From assembly GCA_945889495.1 (NCBI GenBank), contig CAMDBU010000029.1:1-43221 (forward strand): a stretch of 43,221 nucleotides of DNA, read 5' to 3'. Both the position numbers and the translations under genes were made by a program. This DNA comes from Syntrophobacter sp. SbD2 (lineage in GTDB: Bacteria > Desulfobacterota > Binatia > UBA9968). Shown in pieces: positions 17,007-42,162 of the stretch. Below the pieces are notes generated by a model. The model worked only from the letters and a program-made list of their open reading frames with translations, was not told where the DNA came from and did no database searches. Positions within the stretch are counted from its first letter, which is position 1. Each line of letters begins with the position of its first letter.

Positions 17007-20000
17007 CTACTGCGGCTGGCGCAGCATGCGCGCGGCGCCGTCGACTGGCACCTTCAACGGACTGCCGGCGCCGTCATGAAAAATCATCAGCTCGGCGTCA
17101 TGGCCGCCGTTGCTATCGGGGGTAAAGCGCAACCGCAGGACGCAGGGCGCTCCGCCCGGTTTGATCCTCGCCGGACACTGATTGAGTAGGGCAAAGCTCG
17201 CTTTGCCGCGCAGCTCCGCCCGGCTGATCAGCAAATCGGTGCTGCCCTGGTTATCGACGGTCACTTCGAGCGTGCGGTTGCTGCCGAGCGCTAGCTCCGG
17301 GAAGTTAAGCTGGGCGGGTGTGGCCGCGGCCACCGGCTTTTGCACCCTCACCGCCGATCCTTTGACGAGCACTTCGCGGCTGCCGTTGCTTGGCGCTATG
17401 ACGCGCAGGAGCGCCCGGTGGCTGGCCACCGCCTTGGGCGTGTAGCGCAAAATAATATTACAAGTGGCGGCGCCGGCGAGATTGTCGCCGCAGTTATTAC
17501 CGACGATGGCGAACTGGCGCGCGTCGGCGCCGTCGATCTCCACTCGATCGAGGCGTAGGTTGGCGCTACCGCCATTGCGAATCACCAGCCGCTGCAACAA
17601 CGGCGGCGAGTCGATCGCTTGGTCGGAAAACTCCACCGGATCGGGCAGCATTTCGATGGCACTGCCGGCCGGCTTGCCCGAGCCGTAGAGGAGCGCCCGC
17701 GTCGGTTCTCGTCCAGTAGCGTCGGTGATCACAAGCGCCGCTTCCCGGCTTCCCGCGGCGACCGGCGCGAAGGTAATCGCTAGGCGGCAGGTTTTCCCCT
17801 CGGCGGAGATACCGCCTTGGCAATCGTTCTGGGCGATGGTGAAATCGCGTTGGGCACCACCTTCGATGGCGATGGCGGCGATATCGGCGGCCCGGCCCTG
17901 GTGTTGGATGAGTAAATTCTTGGTTAACCTCTGGCCGACATCGACGGCGCCAAATCCCAGGCTCGCTGGATGAACGCTCAACGCATTTGACGCCACCTCG
18001 ACACCGTTGCCGCGCAGGGTCAACTCCGTGCTGGCACCGTCGGCCAGGGTCATGCTCAACATAGCGCTGCGCGCTCCGGCGCCGCTCGGTTTAAACAGAA
18101 TCGCGATGGTACAGCTGAGGCGCTGGGGAATTTCCCGATCGCGGCAGTCGCTTTCGCCGGCGGAAAAATCCTGCCGCTGGGCGCCGCTGATGGTGATTTG
18201 ACCAACCCGTAACGCGGCAACCCCAGTGTTGGTCAAAGTGAGCGCCGCGGCGATGGTGCTGCCGATGGGCCGCGCGCCGAGATCGAACTGCTCCGGGGTC
18301 AAGGTAAAATCTTCGCTGCGCTGTGCCACCCGGGCGTCGCGCCGGCCGCGCAACGCGATCTGGGCGATGGGTTCGCGCCGGCCGTCGCTGAGACTCAAGG
18401 CCGCCACTCGCGCGCCCTCAACGGTGGGCGTAAACATGACGCGGATCTGGCAATCGCCGCCCACCGCCAACGTCTTGTCGGCGCAGCCATTAACCTGGAT
18501 AAAATAATCTTCCCGGGCCGCGCCGGTCACGGCGGCGGCGCCAAACTTCAGCGGTGCGCTGCCAACATTGGCCACGGTCACCGATTGCGCCAGCGCCGGA
18601 ATGTGGAGTGCGACGCTACGAAACTCCAATTGGTTGGGCGAGAAGCTGAGGAGCGCGGGCGGCGGTGGCGCCGGCGGTTCTTGCCATGCCACCAGCGCAA
18701 TGAGCAGGCAGAGTAGCGCCAGGATGGAACCTTTCAGCGGCAGCGGCAATGCCGCTAGTCGCGACCAAAAGGCTCGGGCATAACTCGGAGTGGCGATTTC
18801 CTCTGGCGCGGTGGTGGCGTCGCGCGACGCCAGGCGGTCCAGCAGGTCTAAATTGTGCTGGGTCACGGCGGCGCCCCAGTGATCGCCACGGGCGCAACGG
18901 CGATTGAGCGCCAGGGCCAAGCGCTCGCGGGCCAATGCGCCATCGCCCAGACATAAGGCCCGGCTACCCAGTTGATGGATGAACCATTCGGCCGCCACCG
19001 GATCGCCGCTCAGTTCCGCGGCGCGCTGGCCGAGCTCAAGATTGTGTTGCCAGGCACCCCAGCGTTTGCTCAAGCAGAGCATCGGGTCCATGGCGCGCGC
19101 CAAGCGCAATACTTGCGGCCAGCGCTCTTGACCGACGGCCCAGTCGAGCGCCAGCTCGATCAACTCCGGCGCGGCGGCGCTGGCCGATTCGGCGGCGGCA
19201 ATAAAATATTCGAGTAAATTTTCTTTGAGCGTCGTCAGTTCGCCAACCGGCGCCGCGCCCTCGCGGCAATTGGCCGGCACCAGATAGTCGCCAGAAAGAC
19301 TTTCGATCAGGCGCGCGCTTTCGAGGGTGACTAGCGCCTCATCTAGTTGCGGATCGTTGATTAGCGCGATCAAGGTTGATTTTGCGATAGGTGCGCCGGC
19401 GGCGATCAGTAGCGCGACAATCTTGCGCTCAAGGGCGCCGCAGGCTTGGATGACTTGAGCGGCGCCAATCTCCTCGGTCGGCAGTTGGGCGACATATTCG
19501 ATGAGCGGGCTTTGCCGTTGGCGCAGCTGCGCCATGATTTGCCGGATCAAGCCGGGATTGCGGCCCAGCCGCAGGGCCAGATGTTTGGCCGCCGCCTGTT
19601 CGGCTTCGCTCAAGCTGGCGCCATATTCGCGCTCGATGAGCGCCACCGCGTCGTCCATCGGCAAACCGCGCAGGTAGAGCGGCGTCTCGTCCATGCGCAT
19701 GCGGCCGCTCGTAGTGATAACGATCGCGCAGTTGCTGAGCACATCGGATAAAGGCTTGAGCTCGGCATCGGCCAGGGCGACGTCATCAAGCAGAATCAGC
19801 GCCTTGAGCTCGCCCAGCCGTTGTCGCGTCGCGCCGTCGTTGAGGTTACAAACCTGGCCACCGTCATAGAAAGCCGCGAAGCAATCTTGCAGCAGATCGG
19901 CCACCGGCTGATGACCGACCCGTTGGCGGTAAATTATTCCATCGGGCAAGTTTTTTAATTGCGGCTGATCGGCCAGGTAGCGCATTAGAGCGCTCTTGCC

Positions 20001-20714
20001 GGTGCCGGCGGCGCCGGTGATTTCCAATCTACGGGAGTGAGCCAACGCCGCCAGGGCGTCGGCGGTTTCGCCTTCGCGATCGATCAGGGGCGGGGTTGGC
20101 GACCAGTTCTCTTGCCGCGGCAATCGTCGCACCGGCCCATCGATCTGGGCACTTTCGACCACCGCGCCATGGGCGCGGCTGACGCTGAGGCGGTAACCAT
20201 TGTCAGAGTCGGCTGGGATCAAGAGCTGGCTCGCCGGGTCACTAGCGATGGCGGGACGCAAGTGGCGGTCGAACAGCCAGCGGTGAATATCCGCCGTGAT
20301 CAGCTCGCACAGTTGCTCGCCGTCTTTGAACAGCCCGGGCCGCTGCTGGCGCCGCAACTCGGTTTTGAAAGCCAGCAATTTGCGCAACGCCGCGGCGTTT
20401 TGCTCGCCCAACTGGAGGACGTTTTCATCTTTTAAATAGATCAAACACTCGACGCCACGCGCGCGGGCATGGCGATACTGCGCCTCCACCGCGCCGGAAC
20501 TGTAGCGTCCGGCAATGATGCCGACATAAAGCTCGCAGCCGGCGATTTGACTGAACAGCTGCTCGCCATCGGACTCGCTGGAATTGCCGAAATAGTCCCG
20601 GCCAAGAATGGCGGCCTGGCGCAGACGCTGGAACAGCTCGGCTACGGCTTTGCGCTCGGATTGGAGATCGTACTGAGTCGAGCTGACGAAGATCGCGGCG
20701 ATGGGCGGTGACAT
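17007..20714 (-). CDS. DUF4062/STAND-type ATPase with TM segment and Hydin-like Ig repeats
   Basis: This is a multidomain protein of about 1235 residues. Residues 4-85 are DUF4062 (IAAIFVSSTQYDLQSERKAV), a domain common in NLR-like signalling proteins. Residues 210-480 hold a STAND/NB-ARC-type ATPase with Walker A GAAGTGKS (234-241) and Walker B ALILLDDV (305-312), followed by helical repeats (about 500-625). A membrane segment lies at about 662-677 (SILALLCLLIALVAW). Beyond it are five ASPM/SPD-2/Hydin-like Ig repeats of about 100 residues, each with a pair of cysteines about 11 apart (near 744/755, 857/868, 965/976, 1075/1085, 1180/1191). The likely topology is N-terminal domains inside and repeats outside. 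ATG 20714 is preferred over TTG 20729. The role, perhaps stress or defence signalling, is inferred. Confidence 0.85.
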   Translation of the reverse strand: MSPPIAAIFVSSTQYDLQSERKAVAELFQRLRQAAILGRDYFGNSSESDGEQLFSQIAGCELYVGIIAGRYSSGAVEAQYRHARARGVECLIYLKDENVLQLGEQNAAALRKLLAFKTELRRQQRPGLFKDGEQLCELITADIHRWLFDRHLRPAIASDPASQLLIPADSDNGYRLSVSRAHGAVVESAQIDGPVRRLPRQENWSPTPPLIDREGETADALAALAHSRRLEITGAAGTGKSALMRYLADQPQLKNLPDGIIYRQRVGHQPVADLLQDCFAAFYDGGQVCNLNDGATRQRLGELKALILLDDVALADAELKPLSDVLSNCAIVITTSGRMRMDETPLYLRGLPMDDAVALIEREYGASLSEAEQAAAKHLALRLGRNPGLIRQIMAQLRQRQSPLIEYVAQLPTEEIGAAQVIQACGALERKIVALLIAAGAPIAKSTLIALINDPQLDEALVTLESARLIESLSGDYLVPANCREGAAPVGELTTLKENLLEYFIAAAESASAAAPELIELALDWAVGQERWPQVLRLARAMDPMLCLSKRWGAWQHNLELGQRAAELSGDPVAAEWFIHQLGSRALCLGDGALARERLALALNRRCARGDHWGAAVTQHNLDLLDRLASRDATTAPEEIATPSYARAFWSRLAALPLPLKGSILALLCLLIALVAWQEPPAPPPPALLSFSPNQLEFRSVALHIPALAQSVTVANVGSAPLKFGAAAVTGAAREDYFIQVNGCADKTLAVGGDCQIRVMFTPTVEGARVAALSLSDGRREPIAQIALRGRRDARVAQRSEDFTLTPEQFDLGARPIGSTIAAALTLTNTGVAALRVGQITISGAQRQDFSAGESDCRDREIPQRLSCTIAILFKPSGAGARSAMLSMTLADGASTELTLRGNGVEVASNALSVHPASLGFGAVDVGQRLTKNLLIQHQGRAADIAAIAIEGGAQRDFTIAQNDCQGGISAEGKTCRLAITFAPVAAGSREAALVITDATGREPTRALLYGSGKPAGSAIEMLPDPVEFSDQAIDSPPLLQRLVIRNGGSANLRLDRVEIDGADARQFAIVGNNCGDNLAGAATCNIILRYTPKAVASHRALLRVIAPSNGSREVLVKGSAVRVQKPVAAATPAQLNFPELALGSNRTLEVTVDNQGSTDLLISRAELRGKASFALLNQCPARIKPGGAPCVLRLRFTPDSNGGHDAELMIFHDGAGSPLKVPVDGAARMLRQPQ

Positions 20715-20905
20715 GGTTAGATCGGGCAATGGTCAGACAACCGGGGTGAGTATCGCCAACTGAATTGCCAATGTCCAGCCGATTCACAATTTCGAATCGA
20801 AGGGCGCTCAATTGCGCCCTTCGGTTGACCGCTCTCGCGCTGCGGTGATACCTTCTGGCGGTCGTTGCAGCCAGCGGCCGCGGCGCTAACTTGAGGGACA
20901 ATTTG

Positions 20906-30177: not shown

Positions 30178-31263
30178 TCAAGGGGCCGGGCGGTTGACAA
30201 TCGGCCGAGTGGTAACGGTGGCGTCGAGGTCCTTGCCGTCATGTCGCAGAATCAACTTCGTCCCAGCTGCCGCGAAATCCTTATTGACGTAGGCTAAAGC
30301 GATAGCGCGTTCGAGCGCCGGGGAGGCCACCGAGCTGGTGATCTGGCCGACCTCTTTGTCGCCGGCGCTCAGTTTGTCGCCGGCGCTGGCGGGCTCTTTG
30401 CCGTCGAGCAGCAAGCCGCAGAGCTTTTTGTTGACATGGCCGCGCGAGCGGATGCGTTCGACCACTTCCTGGCCCAAATAGCAGCCCTTGGAAAAGCTCA
30501 CGGCGTCGTTGAGCTCAACTTCGAGCAACAGGTTATCTTCGGAAAAATCACTGCCGTAACGGGCGATTCCCGCCTCAAGCCGCAAAATATTTTGTGCCGC
30601 CGCGCCAACCCAAAGGGCGCCGAGTTCGGTCAGGCGCTCAACGAAGGCCGAGAGCTGCGCGGTTTGGACGATCAGATCGAAGCCATCGTAGCCGCTCCAA
30701 TCGGCGCGCACGACGCACACCGGCGCGCCGTCAAACTGCACCATGCCATGGTGATGGGGCTCGGCCGGCAGATCGGCGTGGGCAAGCAGTTGGTCGAGCA
30801 TCGCCTTGGCCCGCGCTCCCTGGAGCGACAGCATTTTCCACTGCTCGTTGGGATCATGGATTTCGACATCGTCGGCGACCAGGTAGCGGTTGAGGTGGGT
30901 TAGAATTTTTTCCTTCAGCGGCTCCCAAAAGTCGAGATAGAAAGAATTCAGGGAGCATAACACACGCACGTCTGCGACCACTTTGCCCTGTTGGGTCAAA
31001 ATCGCCGCCTGCTGGCCGTCGAACATCTGCAGCGGTTTGAGATCGTTGGACAGCATGCCCTGGAGATAGGACAGCCGGTCCTCGCCGGTGAACTGCAACA
31101 TGGCGCGGTTGGCGAGGTCGTAGATGCCGGCCGCGGTGGTCACGCCGGTATATTCCATCACCGGTTGCGGGAAGAATTTCTCGGGCAGCAACCAGCCATC
31201 CTGTTCGACGAAGGTCGCTCGGCGGCGTTCATGCAATTCGTGGAGTGTCGATCGCTTTGCCAT
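30178..31263 (-). CDS. Folate-binding YgfZ/GcvT-like protein
   Basis: This protein of about 361 residues has the aminomethyltransferase (GcvT) fold. The diagnostic YgfZ motif KGCYLGQEVVERIRSRGHV is present at about residues 240-258 and includes the conserved cysteine. YgfZ proteins use folate and support Fe-S cluster enzymes; they do not carry out the glycine-cleavage reaction. The N-terminus has LHELHERRRATF and YDLANRAMLQFTGEDRLSYL, typical of GcvT-like proteins. It is the upstream gene of the Rieske ferredoxin on the minus strand, with 64 bases between them, consistent with an Fe-S link. An alternative start lies at 31272. It is divergent from the selenoprotein gene. Confidence 0.88.
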   Translation of the reverse strand: MAKRSTLHELHERRRATFVEQDGWLLPEKFFPQPVMEYTGVTTAAGIYDLANRAMLQFTGEDRLSYLQGMLSNDLKPLQMFDGQQAAILTQQGKVVADVRVLCSLNSFYLDFWEPLKEKILTHLNRYLVADDVEIHDPNEQWKMLSLQGARAKAMLDQLLAHADLPAEPHHHGMVQFDGAPVCVVRADWSGYDGFDLIVQTAQLSAFVERLTELGALWVGAAAQNILRLEAGIARYGSDFSEDNLLLEVELNDAVSFSKGCYLGQEVVERIRSRGHVNKKLCGLLLDGKEPASAGDKLSAGDKEVGQITSSVASPALERAIALAYVNKDFAAAGTKLILRHDGKDLDATVTTRPIVNRPAP

Positions 31264-31381
31264 TGGTGCCAAAATATAGCCTCAAGTGAGGCGGTTGACA
31301 ATGCTCAAACGCGACTCGACATCGTTGATAGATGGATTTACCGGTGATAGACAGGCAATATCTAATTTACGGAGGTGCTTC

Positions 31382-31849
31382 ATGGCAGGACTTGAAGGAC
31401 AGAAGGCGCCGGCGTTCACGCTGGCTGGCAGCGACGGCAAGCAACATTCGCTGGCTGAGTACGCCGGCAAAAATGTAATTCTCTGGTTTTATCCCAAAGA
31501 CGACACACCTGGCTGAACCAAGGAAGCGTGCGGGTTCCGCGACGCTATCGATACCGTGACCAAAGCCAATACCGTCGTCGTGGGCGTGAGCCCCGATGGC
31601 ATCGACTCTCACAATCAGTTCATCAGCAAGTTCAACTTGCCGTTTGTTTTGCTCGCCGACCAGCAGAAGGAAACCATGAAGGCCTACGGCGCCTGGGGAC
31701 CGCGCAAGAACGCCGCTGGTGAAGTTTCCGAAGGGACGATCCGCTCCACCGCCTTGATCGGCGCCGACGGCACGATCAAGAAGCACTGGATTCCAGTCGC
31801 CGACGCCGGCGCCCATCCGGCCGAAGTGTTGGCGTTTCTCAATAGTTAA
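31382..31849 (+). CDS. Selenocysteine-containing peroxiredoxin, PrxQ/BCP type (SecPrx1)
   Basis: This protein has 155 residues if TGA at 31514-31516 is read as selenocysteine (U45). The N-terminal part is canonical: GQKAPAFTLAGSDGK, then ILWFYPKDDTPG directly before the TGA. After it the frame continues TKEACGFRD, so the family motif TPGC becomes TPGU, with the resolving Cys at position 50 kept. The rest, including VVVGVSPDG, LPFVLLAD and GTIRSTALIGADG, is intact to the normal stop. BCP/PrxQ enzymes reduce peroxides using thioredoxin. A hairpin at 31526-31545 gives a SECIS candidate. A simple nonsense mutation is unlikely because a second gene shows the same layout. GGAGG precedes ATG 31382. 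Confidence 0.93.
31526..31545 (+). promoter_or_regulatory. Candidate bacterial SECIS hairpin of SecPrx1
   Basis: Nine bases after the TGA, GCGU-GCGG pairs with CCGC-(G)-ACGC. This gives eight base pairs, a single bulged G on the 3' side and a three-base GUU loop. The loop begins 18 nt after the TGA. Bacterial SECIS elements typically place a small apical loop starting with a G about 16-37 nt after UGA. It lies inside the coding region, as expected in bacteria. Confidence 0.78.
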
Positions 31850-31866
31850 TTTTCGTCCAAGGTTCG

Positions 31867-31901
31867 GGGAGCGCGCCGATTTACCGATCGGCCGCGCTCC
31901 C
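31867..31901 (+). promoter_or_regulatory. Strong hairpin between SecPrx1 and the LysR gene
   Basis: GGGAGCGCG pairs with CGCGCTCCC, with an inner CCGAT/ATCGG stem and a short loop. There is no T-run after it, so it is a poor intrinsic terminator. It may stabilise the 3' end of the SecPrx1 message or act with Rho. A palindromic region close to a LysR gene could also be a binding site. Confidence 0.5.
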
Positions 31902-31921
31902 TGGGCTTGCCCACACGCTCC

Positions 31922-32833
31922 ATGGCCAAGATCAAAGCCGACCTCGATCTCCACAAGCTAGAAATTTTTTACTGGGTTGCCGAGCATAAAAGCTTCTCCC
32001 AAGCCGCCGAACTGTTATCGCTGCGCCAGCCGACCATCAGCGCCCATGTGCAGGAGCTGGAAGAAGCGGTGGGCGGAAAGCTGCTCTACCGCATGCCGGG
32101 GAAGATCAGCTTGACGCCGTTGGGTCTCATGCTCGCCGAGCGGGCGAAAAATCTGCTCGCCTTCAAGCGCGAAACCGTCGCCGCCGTGGAACAGTTTCAC
32201 GGCACGCTCAGCGGCGAGCTCTGGGTCGGCGCCAGTAGCATCCCCGGCGAATATCTCTTGCCGCAAAAGTTGGGCGAGTTCATCAAAAAATACCCAGGGG
32301 TCAAGCCGATTCTACGCATCGGCGATTCGGCCGGCGTGGTCACCGACCTACTCGACGGCAAAGTCGAGATCGGTTATGTCGGCTTCAAGGGCGACGATCG
32401 CCGGCTCAAGTTTGAAAAGATCTGGGACGATGAGATGGTGTTGGCCGTGCCCAAGGGGCATCCCTGGAGCAAGCGCAGCCATGTTAGCGTCGACGATCTA
32501 CGGTCGGAGAAGTTCATTTCACGCGAGCATGGTTCGGGAACCCTCGACTCGATCCGTCAATTACTCGCCAAGCGCAAACAGCCGGCCATGGAGCTGTTGA
32601 ATATCACCATGGAGCTCGGCAGCACCGAGGCGGTCAAAGAAGCGCTCATCGCCGGGTACGGGTTTTCTATCCTGTCGCGCGTCTCGATTCGGCATGAACT
32701 TGCCGAAGGCAGCATCGTTGAAGTGCCGATCCGCGGCTTGAAACTCGACCGTGATTTTTATCAGGTCTTTCACAGGCGCCGACCGCTCCATCCGATCGCG
32801 CAAACCTTTCGCGAGTTTCTCAGGCAAGTTTAA
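31922..32833 (+). CDS. LysR-family regulator, CysL/selenium-metabolism-like
   Basis: This protein of 303 residues is a LysR regulator. The winged-helix DNA-binding domain covers about residues 1-65: LEIFYWVAEHKSFSQAAELL, RQPTISAHVQELEEAVGGKL and LTPLGLMLAERAK. The effector domain begins about residue 90 and contains ASSIPGEYLLPQKLGEF and LGSTEAVKEALIAGYGFSIL. These are seen in CysL/CbbR-like regulators and in a family named for association with selenium metabolism. I raise the selenium subgroup as likely because the gene lies directly between selenoprotein genes; it is not proved. It is 72 bases after SecPrx1. An open upstream extension exists, but MAKIKADL is the natural start. Confidence 0.88.
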   Translation: MAKIKADLDLHKLEIFYWVAEHKSFSQAAELLSLRQPTISAHVQELEEAVGGKLLYRMPGKISLTPLGLMLAERAKNLLAFKRETVAAVEQFHGTLSGELWVGASSIPGEYLLPQKLGEFIKKYPGVKPILRIGDSAGVVTDLLDGKVEIGYVGFKGDDRRLKFEKIWDDEMVLAVPKGHPWSKRSHVSVDDLRSEKFISREHGSGTLDSIRQLLAKRKQPAMELLNITMELGSTEAVKEALIAGYGFSILSRVSIRHELAEGSIVEVPIRGLKLDRDFYQVFHRRRPLHPIAQTFREFLRQV

Positions 32834-32925
32834 GCGTGCTTTTCGGCAAAAGTTTTTGCCTCATTCTCTTCCATAGCTAAAATCTATTTAGTATATAGCC
32901 ATAGTGAATGCGGGAGGGGTGGGCC

Positions 32926-34284
32926 ATGGCACTGCAATTAAAGCATAGCGGTCCCAGCGCCGCCGAGCAGGTGCGGGAAAGATTTCATGCCGCTTGGGCG
33001 CGCTCGGATGAGATATTTGCCGTCGTCGGCGCGGGTCAAACCTTGACCCAACCGATCGTCTGGCGCCATCCGTTTATTTTTTACATCGGCCATCTGCCGG
33101 CTTTTTCTTGGAACCAGGTGTGCGGCGGAATTCTCGGCTGGCGTTCGTTTAATCCTTACTTCGACGATCTGTTCTGCCGAGGCATCGATCCCGATGTCGA
33201 CACCGGCGAGTGCCATTGGCATCCCGAAGTTCCCGACCGCTGGCCAAGCCTGGAAGAGACGTTAAGTTATCGCGACCAGGTGCGGCGCGCCCTGTTGGAC
33301 GCCACCGAGGCGCTGGCCGATTGCCGGTCCAACGATCCATTGGCCCAGGGTGGACGGGTTTTCGAGTTGATCTTGGAGCATGAGTACATGCACCAGGAAA
33401 CCTTGCTCTACATGATGCAGCAGATGGAGCCCTCGGAAAAAACCGCGCCGCGAAATTTGCCGCGCTACAACTTCGGCCCAGCTCGGCACCGCCAAACCAT
33501 TCGCATCCCCGCCGGCAAAGCGCGGCTCGGGGCGGACTTCGACGAGATCACTTTCGGTTGGGACAATGAGTTCGGCGCGGTCAATGTCGAGGTGCCCAGC
33601 TTCGCCATGGACTCATTGCCCGTGACCAACGGCGAGTTTTTCGAATTTGTTCTCGCGGGTGGCTACAACAAGCGGCGCCATTGGCGCCCGGACGACTGGC
33701 TTTGGAAAGAGCTTGAGCACAAACAACATCCCAGCTGCTGGCAGCGACAGGGCGATACTTGGTGCTATCGAGTGATGTTCGACTGGTTGCCCATCGAACA
33801 GGTATGCAGCTGGCCGGTTTACGTTAGCCTGGCCGAAGCGCGCGCTTTTGCCGCATGGCGGGGACAACGGTTGGCAACCGAAGCCGAGTATCAGCGAGCG
33901 GCTTTTTACGGTCCGAATGAACGTCCATCGATCCATCCATGGGGTGACAGCGATCCGGCGCCGCGTTATGGCAATTTCGGCTTTACCGCGTGGTCGCCCG
34001 AACCGGTCGGCGCCCATCCGGCGGGCGCGAGCCGGTGGGGAGTTCATGAACTAGTCGGTAACGGTTGGGAATTGACCGACACGCCGTTCGCGCCGCTGGC
34101 GGGATTTACGCCCTACATGACGACCTATCGCGATTACTCGCAAGACTTTTTCGACGGCAAACATTTTGTCGTCAAGGGGGCGTCCTGGGCCACCGATGGC
34201 GCGCTCCTGCGGCCGAGTTTTCGTAACTGGTATCAAGCCCACTATCCCTATGTGTTCGCCAAGTTTCGCTGCGTCAGCGATTGA
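32926..34284 (+). CDS. EgtB/SenA-like non-haem iron enzyme (DinB + FGE-sulfatase domains)
   Basis: This enzyme has 452 residues. The N-terminal DinB_2-like half (about 15-165) carries the presumed iron ligands: H56 in YIGHLPAFSW, then H152 and H156 in EHEYMHQE, which is the HxxxHxE pattern of EgtB. The C-terminal half (about 190-452) is an FGE-sulfatase domain (FAMDSLPVTNGEFFEF; LATEAEYQRAAF; NGWELTDTPFAP). EgtB makes the C-S bond of ergothioneine, and related SenA makes the C-Se bond of selenoneine. No egtD, senB or senC is nearby, so the product is uncertain. The strong GGGAGGGG site favours ATG 32926. A weak promoter may lie near 32855-32883. Confidence 0.88.
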   Translation: MALQLKHSGPSAAEQVRERFHAAWARSDEIFAVVGAGQTLTQPIVWRHPFIFYIGHLPAFSWNQVCGGILGWRSFNPYFDDLFCRGIDPDVDTGECHWHPEVPDRWPSLEETLSYRDQVRRALLDATEALADCRSNDPLAQGGRVFELILEHEYMHQETLLYMMQQMEPSEKTAPRNLPRYNFGPARHRQTIRIPAGKARLGADFDEITFGWDNEFGAVNVEVPSFAMDSLPVTNGEFFEFVLAGGYNKRRHWRPDDWLWKELEHKQHPSCWQRQGDTWCYRVMFDWLPIEQVCSWPVYVSLAEARAFAAWRGQRLATEAEYQRAAFYGPNERPSIHPWGDSDPAPRYGNFGFTAWSPEPVGAHPAGASRWGVHELVGNGWELTDTPFAPLAGFTPYMTTYRDYSQDFFDGKHFVVKGASWATDGALLRPSFRNWYQAHYPYVFAKFRCVSD

Positions 34285-34310
34285 CCGCCGCTTAATTGAA
34301 AGGACTAACC

Positions 34311-34592
34311 ATGAAAGCCGTTTGGGAAAATACCGTGATCGCGGAATCCGCCGAGACCGTTGTCGTCGAGGGCAATCATTACTTTCCGCCGCAGTCGATC
34401 AAGAAAGAATGCTTTGAACCGAGCGATACGCATAGCACTTGCCACTGGAAAGGGCTCGCCAGTTACTATCACGTCAAGGTGGATGACAAGGTCAATACCG
34501 ATGCCGCGTGGTTTTATCCTGAACCGAAAGAAGCCGCCCAGGCGATCAAGAGCTATGTCGCGTTTTGGCGTGGCGTGACGGTGGCGGAATAA
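34311..34592 (+). CDS. DUF427 domain protein
   Basis: The protein has 93 residues and consists entirely of a DUF427 domain: VWENTVIAESAETVVVEGNH, YFPPQSIKKECFEPSD, HSTCHWKGLASYYHV and AAWFYPEPKEAAQAIKSYVA. It folds as a small mostly beta barrel; its biochemical activity is not established. The conserved Cys and His (KEC, HSTCHWKG) could bind metal or ligand, which is inference. It begins 26 bases after the EgtB-like gene and ends 12 bases before the PhnD-like gene. GAAAGGA precedes ATG 34311; an upstream in-frame TTG (34296) is less likely. Confidence 0.88.
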   Translation: MKAVWENTVIAESAETVVVEGNHYFPPQSIKKECFEPSDTHSTCHWKGLASYYHVKVDDKVNTDAAWFYPEPKEAAQAIKSYVAFWRGVTVAE

Positions 34593-34604
34593 CTCCGCGA
34601 TTCG

Positions 34605-35405
34605 ATGAAAACTTTGAAGCTCGCCTCGTGCATGGCCGAGAACTCCGAGGCGCTGTGCCGCGCCGTCGCCGCGGTTCTTGAATGCGAGTTGGGCATCCCC
34701 GCCGAGTACCTCTCCGGCATCCCGTGGCAAGAGCGCGAGCGTTTATTCGATGCCGGCGAGATCCAGATACTTTGGCTGTGCGGCTTGCCCTATGTCGACA
34801 AAGCCGATCTGGCAGGCCAGGAGCTTGAACTGCTCGCCGTGCCGGTGCCGCTGGGCGCCCGCTACCACCGGCGGCCAATCTATTTTTCCGACCTGGTGGT
34901 GCGCCGCGACAGCCCATTTCAGTCCTTCATCGATCTGCGTGGCGCGTCTTTCGCCTACAACGAGCCACGATCCCATTCCGGTTTCAATGTCGTGCGCGCC
35001 TATCTGGCCGAGCTCGGCCAGCAACGAGGATACTTCGGCAGGGTCGTCGAATCCGGCGCTCATGCCAAGTCGATCGCGATGATCCAATCCGGCGCCATCG
35101 ACTGTGCCGCCATCGACAGCACCGTGCGGGAGTGGCTAACCGCCCAGCGCGAGGATTTGGCGGCCCAATTGCGGGTGGTCGAAACCATCGGTCCGAGCCC
35201 GATGCCGCCTTGGGTGGTGTCGAGGAATTTAACCGTGGCGCTGCGCCGGCAAATCCGTCGCGTGCTATTGGAACTTCACCTCACTGCGTCGGGGCAGGCG
35301 GCGTTGGCGCAAGCGCGGTTCGAGCGCTTCGTCTTTGCCGAGGATCTGGACTACAACCCGATCCGCCGCATGGCGCGCAACGCCGAAACGGTTTTGCTCG
35401 CCTAG
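34605..35405 (+). CDS. PhnD-like phosphonate/phosphate-type binding protein, no signal peptide
   Basis: This protein of 266 residues has the fold pattern of PhnD-type binding proteins: a start MKTLKLASCMAENSEALCRA, then GEIQILWLCGLPYVDKAD, YFSDLVVRRDSPFQSFIDLR, a SGFNVVRAYLAELG strand-helix, SGAHAKSIAMIQSGAIDCAA and IDSTVREWL. Most relatives are secreted, but this one has no hydrophobic leader and begins directly with strand 1, so it is predicted to be cytosolic. It may therefore sense or hold a metabolite instead of serving an importer. It is 12 bases after DUF427. SecPrx2 follows after 66 bases. The ligand cannot be told from sequence. Confidence 0.8.
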   Translation: MKTLKLASCMAENSEALCRAVAAVLECELGIPAEYLSGIPWQERERLFDAGEIQILWLCGLPYVDKADLAGQELELLAVPVPLGARYHRRPIYFSDLVVRRDSPFQSFIDLRGASFAYNEPRSHSGFNVVRAYLAELGQQRGYFGRVVESGAHAKSIAMIQSGAIDCAAIDSTVREWLTAQREDLAAQLRVVETIGPSPMPPWVVSRNLTVALRRQIRRVLLELHLTASGQAALAQARFERFVFAEDLDYNPIRRMARNAETVLLA

Positions 35406-35471
35406 ACTCTATGCTAAGAACTTGATCACGCGCACCGGTGCGCGGCTAGTACATTGAGGAGGCAAATCGTT

Positions 35472-35939
35472 ATGGCGAGTTTAGAAGGCAAGATGGCGGC
35501 TGACTTCAATCTTGACGGCAGCGACGGTAAGAAACATTCATTGTCCGACTACCAGGGCAAGACCGTGGTGTTGTTTTTCTATCCCAAGGACAGCACCCCT
35601 GGCTGAATCAAGGAGGCTTGCGGGTTTCGCGAGCGCAACAGCCAGCTGAAGAAGTTGAACGCGGTGGTGTTTGGCGTCAGCAAGGATAGCATCCCATCGC
35701 ACAATAAGTTCGCCGAAAAGTACGATTTGCCCTATGTGCTATTGTCCGATCCGACCACCGACGTGATGAAAAAATACTCCGCCTTCGGCAAAAAGATGAT
35801 GTACGGCAAGGAAGTGCAGGGGACGATCCGCTCGACGGTGATGATCGGACCCAAAGGCGACGTGATCAAGCATTGGCCGCTGGTGACGAAGGTCGAGGAG
35901 CACGCCGACGAAGTCTTGGCCCTGCTCAAAAGCAATTAG
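35472..35939 (+). CDS. Selenocysteine-containing peroxiredoxin, PrxQ/BCP type (SecPrx2)
   Basis: This protein also has 155 residues, with TGA at 35604-35606 as selenocysteine U45, the same position as in SecPrx1. Upstream of the codon: ADFNLDGSDGKKHSL and VLFFYPKDSTPG. Downstream: IKEACGFRERN, with the resolving Cys at 50. The remaining frame (VVFGVSKDS, LPYVLLSD, GTIRSTVMIGPKG, DEVLALLKSN) is undisturbed. The two proteins differ at many residues, so this is an old paralogue pair that kept the UGA. TTGAGGAGG gives an excellent ribosome site. GCGCACCGGTGCGC at about 35429-35442 is a palindrome in its leader and may be an operator. Confidence 0.93.
35616..35634 (+). promoter_or_regulatory. Candidate bacterial SECIS hairpin of SecPrx2
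   Basis: GCUUGCGG pairs with UCGCGAGC (eight pairs, two of them G-U), leaving the same three-base GUU loop as in SecPrx1 and the same loop start 18 nt after the UGA. The lower stem differs from SecPrx1 in base identity yet still pairs. Part of the similarity is forced by the shared KEACGFR protein sequence. Confidence 0.76.
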
Positions 35940-35974
35940 CGATTATCGCGGACCCATATTATCGAAATTGTGAA

Positions 35975-36002
35975 TTGACATAGCCTTCCGATCGGATATA
36001 AA
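35975..36002 (+). promoter_or_regulatory. Sigma-70-type promoter for the transglutaminase-like gene
   Basis: TTGACA (35975-35980) is followed by a 16-base spacer and TATAAA (35997-36002). It lies about 40 bases before ATG 36044, which has GGGGGGA upstream. This suggests that the gene is transcribed separately from the selenoprotein block. Confidence 0.62.
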
Positions 36003-36043
36003 TCAGCTATCGAAATCACCTATCCATGGGACAGGGGGGAGCT

Positions 36044-37144
36044 ATGAATCGTCGACAATTTCTTCAACAAGGATTAACCGTTTCCGCGGGACTCGCGCTC
36101 GGGGGCTTGCCGAAGTTCGCCGGCTGGGCCCATGCCGATGACCCGACCAAGTGGCGCACTTTCGAAGTCACCACCGCTGTCGAAGTTAAAGACGCGGTGG
36201 GCGCTGTGCGCGCCTGGGTGCCGGTGCCATTGACCACGCCGACGGATTATTTCAAGCGCGAGCCGGACGGCTTTAGCGGTAATTACAAAGCGGCGCGCTC
36301 GGTGCAGTATGACAAGTATGGCACCGCCATGGTCTTCGCCGAATGGGCCGCCAGCGAGAAGGCGCCGCAGCTCGAAGTCAAAAGCCGCTTCATGACCCGC
36401 GACCGCGCCATCGACGTCAACGCCAAACCGGCGACCCCGGCCAAGGAAAATCCCGCCGTGCTCCATTATTTCCGCCAGCCGTCCAAGCTCATCCGCACCG
36501 ACGGCGTGGTCGCCAGCACATCGAAAAGCATCGTGATGGGCTATAAGAGCGACGTCGACAAGGCCAGAGCGATTTACGAATGGATCGTCGACAACACCTT
36601 CCGCGATGCCAAAGTGAAGGGTTGCGGCATCGGCGATATCTCCACCATGCTCGAAAGCGGTTACCTAGGCGGCAAGTGCGCCGATTTGAACGCGCTCTTC
36701 GTCGGCCTCGCCCGCGCCGCCGGTTTGCCGGCGCGCGATGTTTACGGTGTGCGGGTCGCGGCGTCGTCGGAATTTAAAAGCTTGGGGCGGGCCGATGACA
36801 TCACTGGCGCGCAGCATTGCCGCGCCGAAGTTTATCTGAACGGTTTCGGCTGGACGCCGGTGGACCCGGCCGACGTGCGCAAGGTCGTACTCGAAGAAAA
36901 TCTGCCTGGCGAGCAGCTCGCTTTGACCGACCCCAAAGTGAAACGCGCCCGTGAGAAACTATTTGGCGCCTGGGAAATGAACTGGCTGCCCTACAACTAC
37001 GCTCACGACATCAAGCTGCCCGGTTCGAAGCTTTCCGATATCGCTTTCTTAATGTATCCGCAGTTGGAAACCGCCAATGGGCGGCGCGACAGCCTAGACC
37101 CGGCGAATTTCAAATACACCATCAAGTCGAAAGAAATCGTTTAG
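36044..37144 (+). CDS. Tat-exported transglutaminase-like protein
   Basis: This protein of 366 residues starts MNRRQFLQQGLTVSAGLALG, a twin-arginine signal (NRRQFLQ), with likely cleavage after AHA near residue 31. The central region has the transglutaminase-like papain fold: KARAIYEWIVDNTF, then GGKCADLNALFVGLARAAGL (the catalytic Cys in KCAD), AQHCRAEVYLNGFGWTPVD (His in QHC), with Asp in VDPAD. The triad appears complete. Such proteins act as periplasmic peptidases or cross-linkers. There is a preceding promoter and an intrinsic terminator about 26 bases after its stop, so it is probably monocistronic. Confidence 0.88.
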   Translation: MNRRQFLQQGLTVSAGLALGGLPKFAGWAHADDPTKWRTFEVTTAVEVKDAVGAVRAWVPVPLTTPTDYFKREPDGFSGNYKAARSVQYDKYGTAMVFAEWAASEKAPQLEVKSRFMTRDRAIDVNAKPATPAKENPAVLHYFRQPSKLIRTDGVVASTSKSIVMGYKSDVDKARAIYEWIVDNTFRDAKVKGCGIGDISTMLESGYLGGKCADLNALFVGLARAAGLPARDVYGVRVAASSEFKSLGRADDITGAQHCRAEVYLNGFGWTPVDPADVRKVVLEENLPGEQLALTDPKVKRAREKLFGAWEMNWLPYNYAHDIKLPGSKLSDIAFLMYPQLETANGRRDSLDPANFKYTIKSKEIV

Positions 37145-41733: not shown

Positions 41734-42162
41734 TCAAGCCATTCGTTGCATTGCTTGATTAATCGCGCGTGGCACCAGCACCTTAACCAGATCCCGCTTG
41801 TACTCCGCAGAGCCGCGATTATCGTCGGTAGGGTCGCACTCGTTGGCGGCGACTTCGCCCATTTCGCGCAGCAGATCGTCAGTGATCGCTTTGCCGCGAA
41901 TGACCGCTTCGGCTTTTCTAGCGTGAACGATGGTGGAGGAGACCGAATTCAAACCTAGGCGCACGTCTTCGCAAAAATCATTCTTTACGTTCAACGTAAT
42001 CGCCACGCCCACGGTGGCGAAATCTTCGACGCTGCGCGGGGTGAATTTGATATGCGCCCAACTCGGACGGGTCGGTGGCGGCACGTGGATCTCGGTTAAC
42101 AACTCGCCGGGCTCCATGGCGGTGTGATAATAATCGATGAAGAACTCGTCTAGCGGTAGCAT
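41734..42162 (-). pseudogene. Truncated second CoxM-like FAD subunit
   Basis: This minus-strand frame of 142 residues starts MLPLDEFFIDYYHTAMEPGE and runs through VGVAITL, VRLGLNSV and DDNRGSAEYKRDLVKVLV. This matches only the C-terminal half of Mo-hydroxylase FAD subunits. The N-terminal FAD-binding half is absent; the same frame upstream reaches a stop (42190-42192) after about nine residues. It is likely a decayed paralogue of the gene at 37409-38266. Confidence 0.78.

Follow-up and report, generated by a model that had tools for sequence, protein, structure and literature searches.

Introduction

Sec-containing peroxiredoxins (Prx) have been recorded in several large surveys. The Sargasso Sea survey of 2005 counted 43 COG1225 sequences with Sec in a TXXU motif (PMC1088965), the GOS survey of 2008 counted 253 Prx with TxxU (PMC2398784), a count of 2016 arrived at 91 Prx in 78 organisms (PMC5029168), and a review of 2026 (PMC13188914) catalogues Sec-Prx. 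The gene studied here, referred to as SecPrx1, is located in a window of 43,221 nucleotides (the whole stretch of DNA that was analysed) from a genome of Syntrophobacter sp. SbD2 (5.64 Mb in 239 contigs, 95.6% complete). It resembles the Sec-containing COG1225/PF00578 Prx in its group, in the UGA at the peroxidatic position, in the PxxxTxxU motif and in its widespread Cys homologues, but differs from the surveyed Sec-Prx in lineage and in that two copies are present here in a conserved cluster, together with a LysR gene of family NF040786 and an EgtB/OvoA-like gene. Given that Sec-containing COG1225 Prx have been described since 2005 and that, covariation of the hairpin apart, their testable traits are found in SecPrx1, its kind is already known.

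With the Cys forms of BCP/PrxQ for which structures were solved (Xanthomonas, Xylella, Bcp1 of Sulfolobus) SecPrx1 shares the predicted fold and the active-site motif; unlike these, it would have Sec where they have their peroxidatic Cys. The BCP of E. coli presumably shows a Cys45/Cys50 arrangement, and a resolving Cys at +5 from the peroxidatic residue and on the same helix is one known arrangement in PrxQ. PrxU of Eubacterium acidaminophilum is said to be a characterised Sec-Prx with Sec at the peroxidatic site; SecPrx1 differs from the PrxU subgroup, reaching 38.5 bits with the PrxU model NF040737 (cut-off 270).

Results and Discussion

Reading frame and family assignment

The gene and its landmarks are the following:

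31382..31849, + strand: SecPrx1, peroxiredoxin of BCP/PrxQ type, peroxidatic codon UGA (Sec) (translation, profile, fold)
31514..31516, + strand: Sec-UGA codon, residue 45, the sole internal stop of SecPrx1 (translation; same codon in five relatives)
31529..31531, + strand: codon of the resolving Cys50 (Sec+5) of SecPrx1 (translation, alignment)
31371..31375, + strand: GGAGG, likely ribosome-binding site of SecPrx1, six bases 5' of the ATG

With TGA read as U, 155 residues are encoded from ATG 31382 to TAA 31849 (MAGLEGQ...FYPKDDTPGUTKEACGFRD...LNS). The original prediction, made from the letters alone, had placed PKDDTPG before TGA 31514 and TKEACGFRD after it, had recognized a BCP/PrxQ active site with Cys replaced by UGA and had regarded the resolving Cys50 as kept, and the translation agrees on all three counts, with the PxxxTxxU motif at residue 45 and a Cys at residue 50. 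It had also held that the remainder of the gene is intact and that a plain gene caller would split or truncate it; indeed the frame is otherwise open to the TAA, PF00578 (AhpC/TSA) matches the read-through product from residue 6 to 134 (123.8 bits vs a cut-off of 26, E 4.9e-36), and the mechanical list of open reading frames contains just 31556-31849 (97 aa) in this frame. P38, T42, residue 45 and R121, which make up the PxxxTxxC/U site and the conserved Arg, are invariant in 28 aligned rows.

SecPrx1 stays below the cut-offs of the NCBIfam PrxQ equivalogs NF006960 (116.7 vs 140 bits) and NF053650 (151 vs 260 bits), which are annotation models narrower than the BCP/PrxQ family. In the structure model (pLDDT 94.8) residues 45 and 50 share helix 43-54. 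Of the 14 PDB entries that Foldseek ranks highest for the model, 12 carry the name BCP or PrxQ, and query TM-scores of 0.85-0.93 and identities of 31-43% hold across the 14. On the strength of profile, alignment and model, SecPrx1 most probably belongs to the BCP/PrxQ group of peroxiredoxins, and thioredoxin-dependent peroxidase activity is predicted.

Gene cluster in the window and in relatives

SecPrx1 is accompanied by the following genes:

30178..31272, - strand: GcvT/YgfZ-like folate-binding protein, divergent neighbour of SecPrx1, position conserved (profiles, relatives)
31907..32833, + strand: LysR-type regulator, NF040786 (262 bits vs cut-off 250)
32908..34284, + strand: DinB_2 + FGE-sulfatase protein, EgtB/OvoA/SenA-like (profiles)
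34605..35405, + strand: phosphonate-type (PF12974) substrate-binding protein (profile; also in the G020 cluster)
35472..35939, + strand: SecPrx2, second BCP/PrxQ-type peroxiredoxin, UGA at 35604-35606 (translation, alignment, frame scan)
36026..37144, + strand: transglutaminase-core protein after SecPrx2, with Prx neighbours in G020 and G008 as well (profiles)

The order thus runs GcvT-like (divergent), SecPrx1, LysR, EgtB/OvoA-like, substrate-binding protein, SecPrx2 and transglutaminase-core, and the two peroxiredoxins are 55% identical. The protein at 32908-34284 remains under the cut-offs for SenA (220.4 vs 420 bits), EgtB (221 vs 360) and OvoA (257.1 vs 400), and it was therefore not assigned to any of the three. 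Likewise, 34605-35405 was not assigned to a selenate transporter, as its scores with the PhnD and selenate models stay under the cut-offs.

The arrangement recurs in relatives. G002, of the same genus, shows GcvT-SecPrx1-LysR-EgtB-like-SecPrx2, and G010 and G017, of another genus, show GcvT-SecPrx1-LysR, with the EgtB-like gene absent from the available DNA. In G020 the order is GcvT-LysR-Prx(Cys)-EgtB-like-substrate-binding protein-SecPrx2-transglutaminase, in G023 (genus of G020) LysR-Prx(Cys)-EgtB-like, and in G008 GcvT-LysR-Prx(Cys)-transglutaminase, where the Prx clusters with SecPrx2 on the tree. The EgtB-like gene belongs to the clusters of G002, G004, G020 and G023 and is not adjacent in L043 (G010) or L114 (G008).

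Elsewhere in the window, a molybdopterin-dehydrogenase FAD subunit is represented at 41734-42162 by its C-terminal portion alone and, with stops throughout the upstream frame, looks like a remnant. A protein of 1240 residues at 17007-20729 combines DUF4062 with HYDIN/ASH-type Ig-like domains.

Conservation of the UGA codon

Under the standard code SecPrx1 is interrupted, as it would be if UGA ended translation here and the gene were either a pseudogene in decay or an artefact of assembly. Among 34 homologous loci, retrieved from named genomes by searching with the protein, TGA occupies the peroxidatic codon in 26 and a Cys codon does so in the other eight; by titles and tree labels the TGA-bearing loci include Deltaproteobacteria, Eremiobacterota/Vulcanimicrobiota, Acidobacteriota, Gemmatimonadota and Planctomycetota. 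Random stops at this codon in related strains, named in the original prediction as a sign against it, were not encountered. The single exception among the homologues listed, which also speaks for decay, is a PrxQ homologue in another MAG (G013:C243:6580-7027), near its LysR: it is split in two, its C-terminal piece contains a TAA, and it is either a broken gene or an assembly fault. All other homologues listed show TGA or Cys. Against decay, five close relatives (L041-L044, L076) retain TGA, and the part after the UGA shows a dN/dS of about 0.07-0.11 at a dS of 0.85-2.2; before the UGA, dN amounts to 0-0.09 and dS to 0.57-2.2, with L076 saturated. Purifying selection thus acts on both sides of the UGA.

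The stops in other genes point in the same direction. The genome has 21 AhpC/TSA matches, and 12 of them (L002-L005, L007, L008, L011, L013, L014, L016, L017, L020) carry one internal stop, which is TGA each time and, judged by eye from the translations, lies at the active-site position in all 12 (TPGU twice, TPTU, NPTU, SATU, TKTU, YWUPFC, YWUGKC, IWUPYC, YGUINC, HPNU, ITUPP). Across the 25 genomes of the family, internal stops in PF00578 matches are likewise TGA every time among the matches listed. With these observations, the chance that SecPrx1 is a pseudogene or an assembly artefact appears vanishingly small.

A tree built from 65 peroxiredoxins, 39 with Sec and 26 with Cys, calls for nine switches between the two residues, and well-supported branches force seven of them. 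Cys orthologues of SecPrx1 occur within the same cluster in G020 and G023 (sister genus), so that two genera have Sec in this slot where a third has Cys. A close SecPrx1 was not found in G001 (same genus, 98% complete; best E 1.6e-11). This genome does possess selA and further TGA-bearing Prx, and none of its proteins exceeds the NF040786 cut-off.

A separate observation concerns the resolving residue. In all 17 rows of an Eremiobacterota/Vulcanimicrobiota clade (L050, L052-L055, L057-L063, L065, L067, L070, L071, L074; two titled just 'bacterium'), which have TGA at the peroxidatic site, the +5 Cys is absent and replaced by Ser, Thr, Ala or Gln. The alignment suggests a one-Sec mechanism or another resolving partner in this clade.

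Sec machinery and genetic code

The original prediction had called for a search of the same genome for sel genes, and the complement was found: selA (614 bits), selB (411 bits) and selD (377 bits) are adjacent on contig 26 (C26:33826-38141), all above curated cut-offs, and one tRNA-Sec (selC) is encoded on contig 78 (73 bits, above the gathering score; anticodon TCA by ARAGORN). selD itself contains one internal TGA.

These genes bear on the possibility that UGA was reassigned in the lineage, for instance to Trp or Cys, and not recoded as Sec. In several genes the UGA that is read through does occupy a Cys position, and a peroxiredoxin would look similar under a code in which UGA means Cys. 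However, three of the window's 13 genes with Pfam support end in UGA, and the codons of these 13 include 39 TGC, 7 TGT and 70 TGG; the tRNA with the TCA anticodon on contig 78 is called tRNA-Sec; selA, selB and selD accompany it; and a positioned hairpin, treated below, occurs in UGA-bearing genes and is wanting in Cys homologues. Reassignment is hence extremely improbable. Altogether, pseudogene, assembly error and code reassignment were rejected on the conservation of the UGA and the selection around it, codon use, the restriction of internal stops to TGA among the matches listed, and the hairpins.

A census of selenoproteins in the genome covered AhpC/TSA, CMD and thioredoxin. Besides the 12 AhpC/TSA genes, two of eight CMD/AhpD-like matches have a TGA, counted irrespective of position, and none of five thioredoxin-family matches has one, three of them overlapping Cys-type AhpC/TSA and two being thioredoxins proper. 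A mechanical scan of the window gave 77 TGA-joined frames, and by eye only the two peroxiredoxins display the active-site motif.

selA exceeds its cut-off in 51 of 58 relatives. Among the matches listed for 23 genomes of the same class, TGA-bearing Prx are present in at least 12 of the 19 with selA and in none of the four without it (G041, G046, G052, G055). Three genomes of the family (G003, G009, G014) have TGA-bearing Prx, yet no selA over cut-off; assembly gaps are a likely explanation, although G009 is rated 100% complete.

Hairpins downstream of the UGA

In both peroxiredoxin genes a hairpin follows the UGA:

31526..31545, + strand: bSECIS-type hairpin core of SecPrx1 (fold and synonymous-shuffle controls)
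35616..35634, + strand: bSECIS-type hairpin of SecPrx2, seven pairs, loop GGUUU, spacing 16 nt (fold)

The core in SecPrx1 consists of eight pairs with one bulged G (31541) and the loop GUU (31534-31536), which lies 17 nt from the UGA; in the MFE fold three further pairs beneath the core bring the total to 11. In the 2026 review, the bSECIS model asks for a loop of 3-9 nt, a stem of 4-16 bp, a G in the first two loop positions and a distance of 16-37 nt from the UGA (PMC13188914), and the SecPrx1 hairpin lies within these bounds for loop, stem, G and spacing.

Compared with synonymous shuffles, a qualifying hairpin was found over a broad range of positions in 27 of 37 Sec genes (12.8 expected) and in ten of 26 Cys genes (8.4 expected). 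Narrowed to a spacing of 16-18 nt, a range picked post hoc from the broad-range result, a hairpin with G in the first two loop bases occurs in 23 of the 37 Sec genes against 6.4 expected (sd 2.1), a number reached in 0 of 400 shuffle sets, and in one of the 26 Cys homologues against 1.4 expected. As the rows are related, they were also reduced to one per clade, which at this spacing left six of 11 Sec versus one of 14 Cys rows with a hairpin. MFE folds of the Cys orthologues of SecPrx1, L082 (G020) and L081 (G023), contain no such hairpin. Covariation in a fixed register was not significant across 27 Sec homologues, with 48 of 500 shuffles as high for cells paired and 49 for the covariation score, perhaps because the hairpin register varies across lineages; a second covariation test agreed.

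Rfam gave zero matches in 31300-36100. Promoter-like sites were no commoner than in shuffles (two found, 2.2 expected), and terminator-like sites were somewhat above them (ten vs 6.3, sd 2.9).

Proposed decoding and catalysis

We consider SecPrx1 almost certainly a genuine selenoprotein of the BCP/PrxQ type, in which UGA 45 is decoded as Sec by SelB and tRNA-Sec under the guidance of a hairpin. The guide would be the intragenic hairpin, starting six to nine bases 3' of the codon. Against this reading stand the non-significant covariation of the hairpin, the lack of an Rfam hit, the three family genomes that combine TGA-bearing Prx with no selA over cut-off, the missing SecPrx1 in G001 and the low scores with the PrxQ equivalogs. 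In peroxiredoxin chemistry the peroxidatic residue is oxidised by peroxide and then resolved by a Cys, and by analogy we infer, besides the insertion of Sec itself, the substrate, the reductant and the selenenylsulfide step of the following scheme. Activated by a pocket of Pro, Thr and Arg, the Sec45 selenol would attack a peroxide and give rise to a selenenic acid; Cys50 on the same helix would condense with it to a selenenylsulfide; and a thioredoxin-type reductant would open the Sec45-Cys50 bond.

The selenium-named regulator

NF040786 carries the database family name 'selenium metabolism-associated LysR family transcriptional regulator', and the LysR at 31907-32833 is the only protein of the genome above its cut-off. 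Across the 25 family genomes, 18 have one NF040786 protein each, and 16 of these 18 genes are situated at most 2.2 kb from an AhpC/TSA (PF00578) match, 14 of them TGA-bearing, as positions compared by eye among the matches listed indicate; in the remaining two, G007 and G014, none of the PF00578 matches listed is on the NF040786 contig. By a rough estimate, such an adjacency would arise by chance in a few percent of cases per genome (about 20 such genes in 4-5 Mb), although the genomes are related to each other. In a limited literature search, whose one hit for a LysR link dealt with genetic code expansion, the pairing of an NF040786 LysR with a Sec-peroxiredoxin was not found in print, and it is this part of the finding for which no earlier report was found.

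The same neighbourhood could be taken to mean that the UGA is decoded as Sec only some of the time, and that the cluster senses selenium through the LysR regulator combined with either the shortened product or the UGA itself. The membership of the LysR in a family named after selenium metabolism and its recurrence near AhpC/TSA matches in 16 of the 18 genomes would fit this. Nevertheless, the same LysR adjoins Cys versions in G020, G023 and G008, so that the UGA is not needed for the arrangement, and in the structure model the piece of 44 residues covers just part of the fold; a sensor of this type is very unlikely.

We tentatively suggest that the LysR might respond to selenium or peroxide and regulate a module for peroxide defence composed of the Sec-peroxiredoxins and the sulfoxide-synthase-like enzyme, an idea to which we give somewhat less than even chances; the EgtB/OvoA/SenA-like enzyme may make a small defence thiol or selenol.

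Conclusions

The window adds well-supported Sec-peroxiredoxins to a class whose genes are truncated by ordinary annotation. As one gene slot is occupied by a Sec form in two genera and by a Cys form in another, the locus offers a natural experiment on the benefit of selenium. The recurrent pairing with peroxiredoxins makes the signal of a selenium-named regulator family testable, and if the proposed regulation is true, this lineage ties its peroxide defence to selenium supply.
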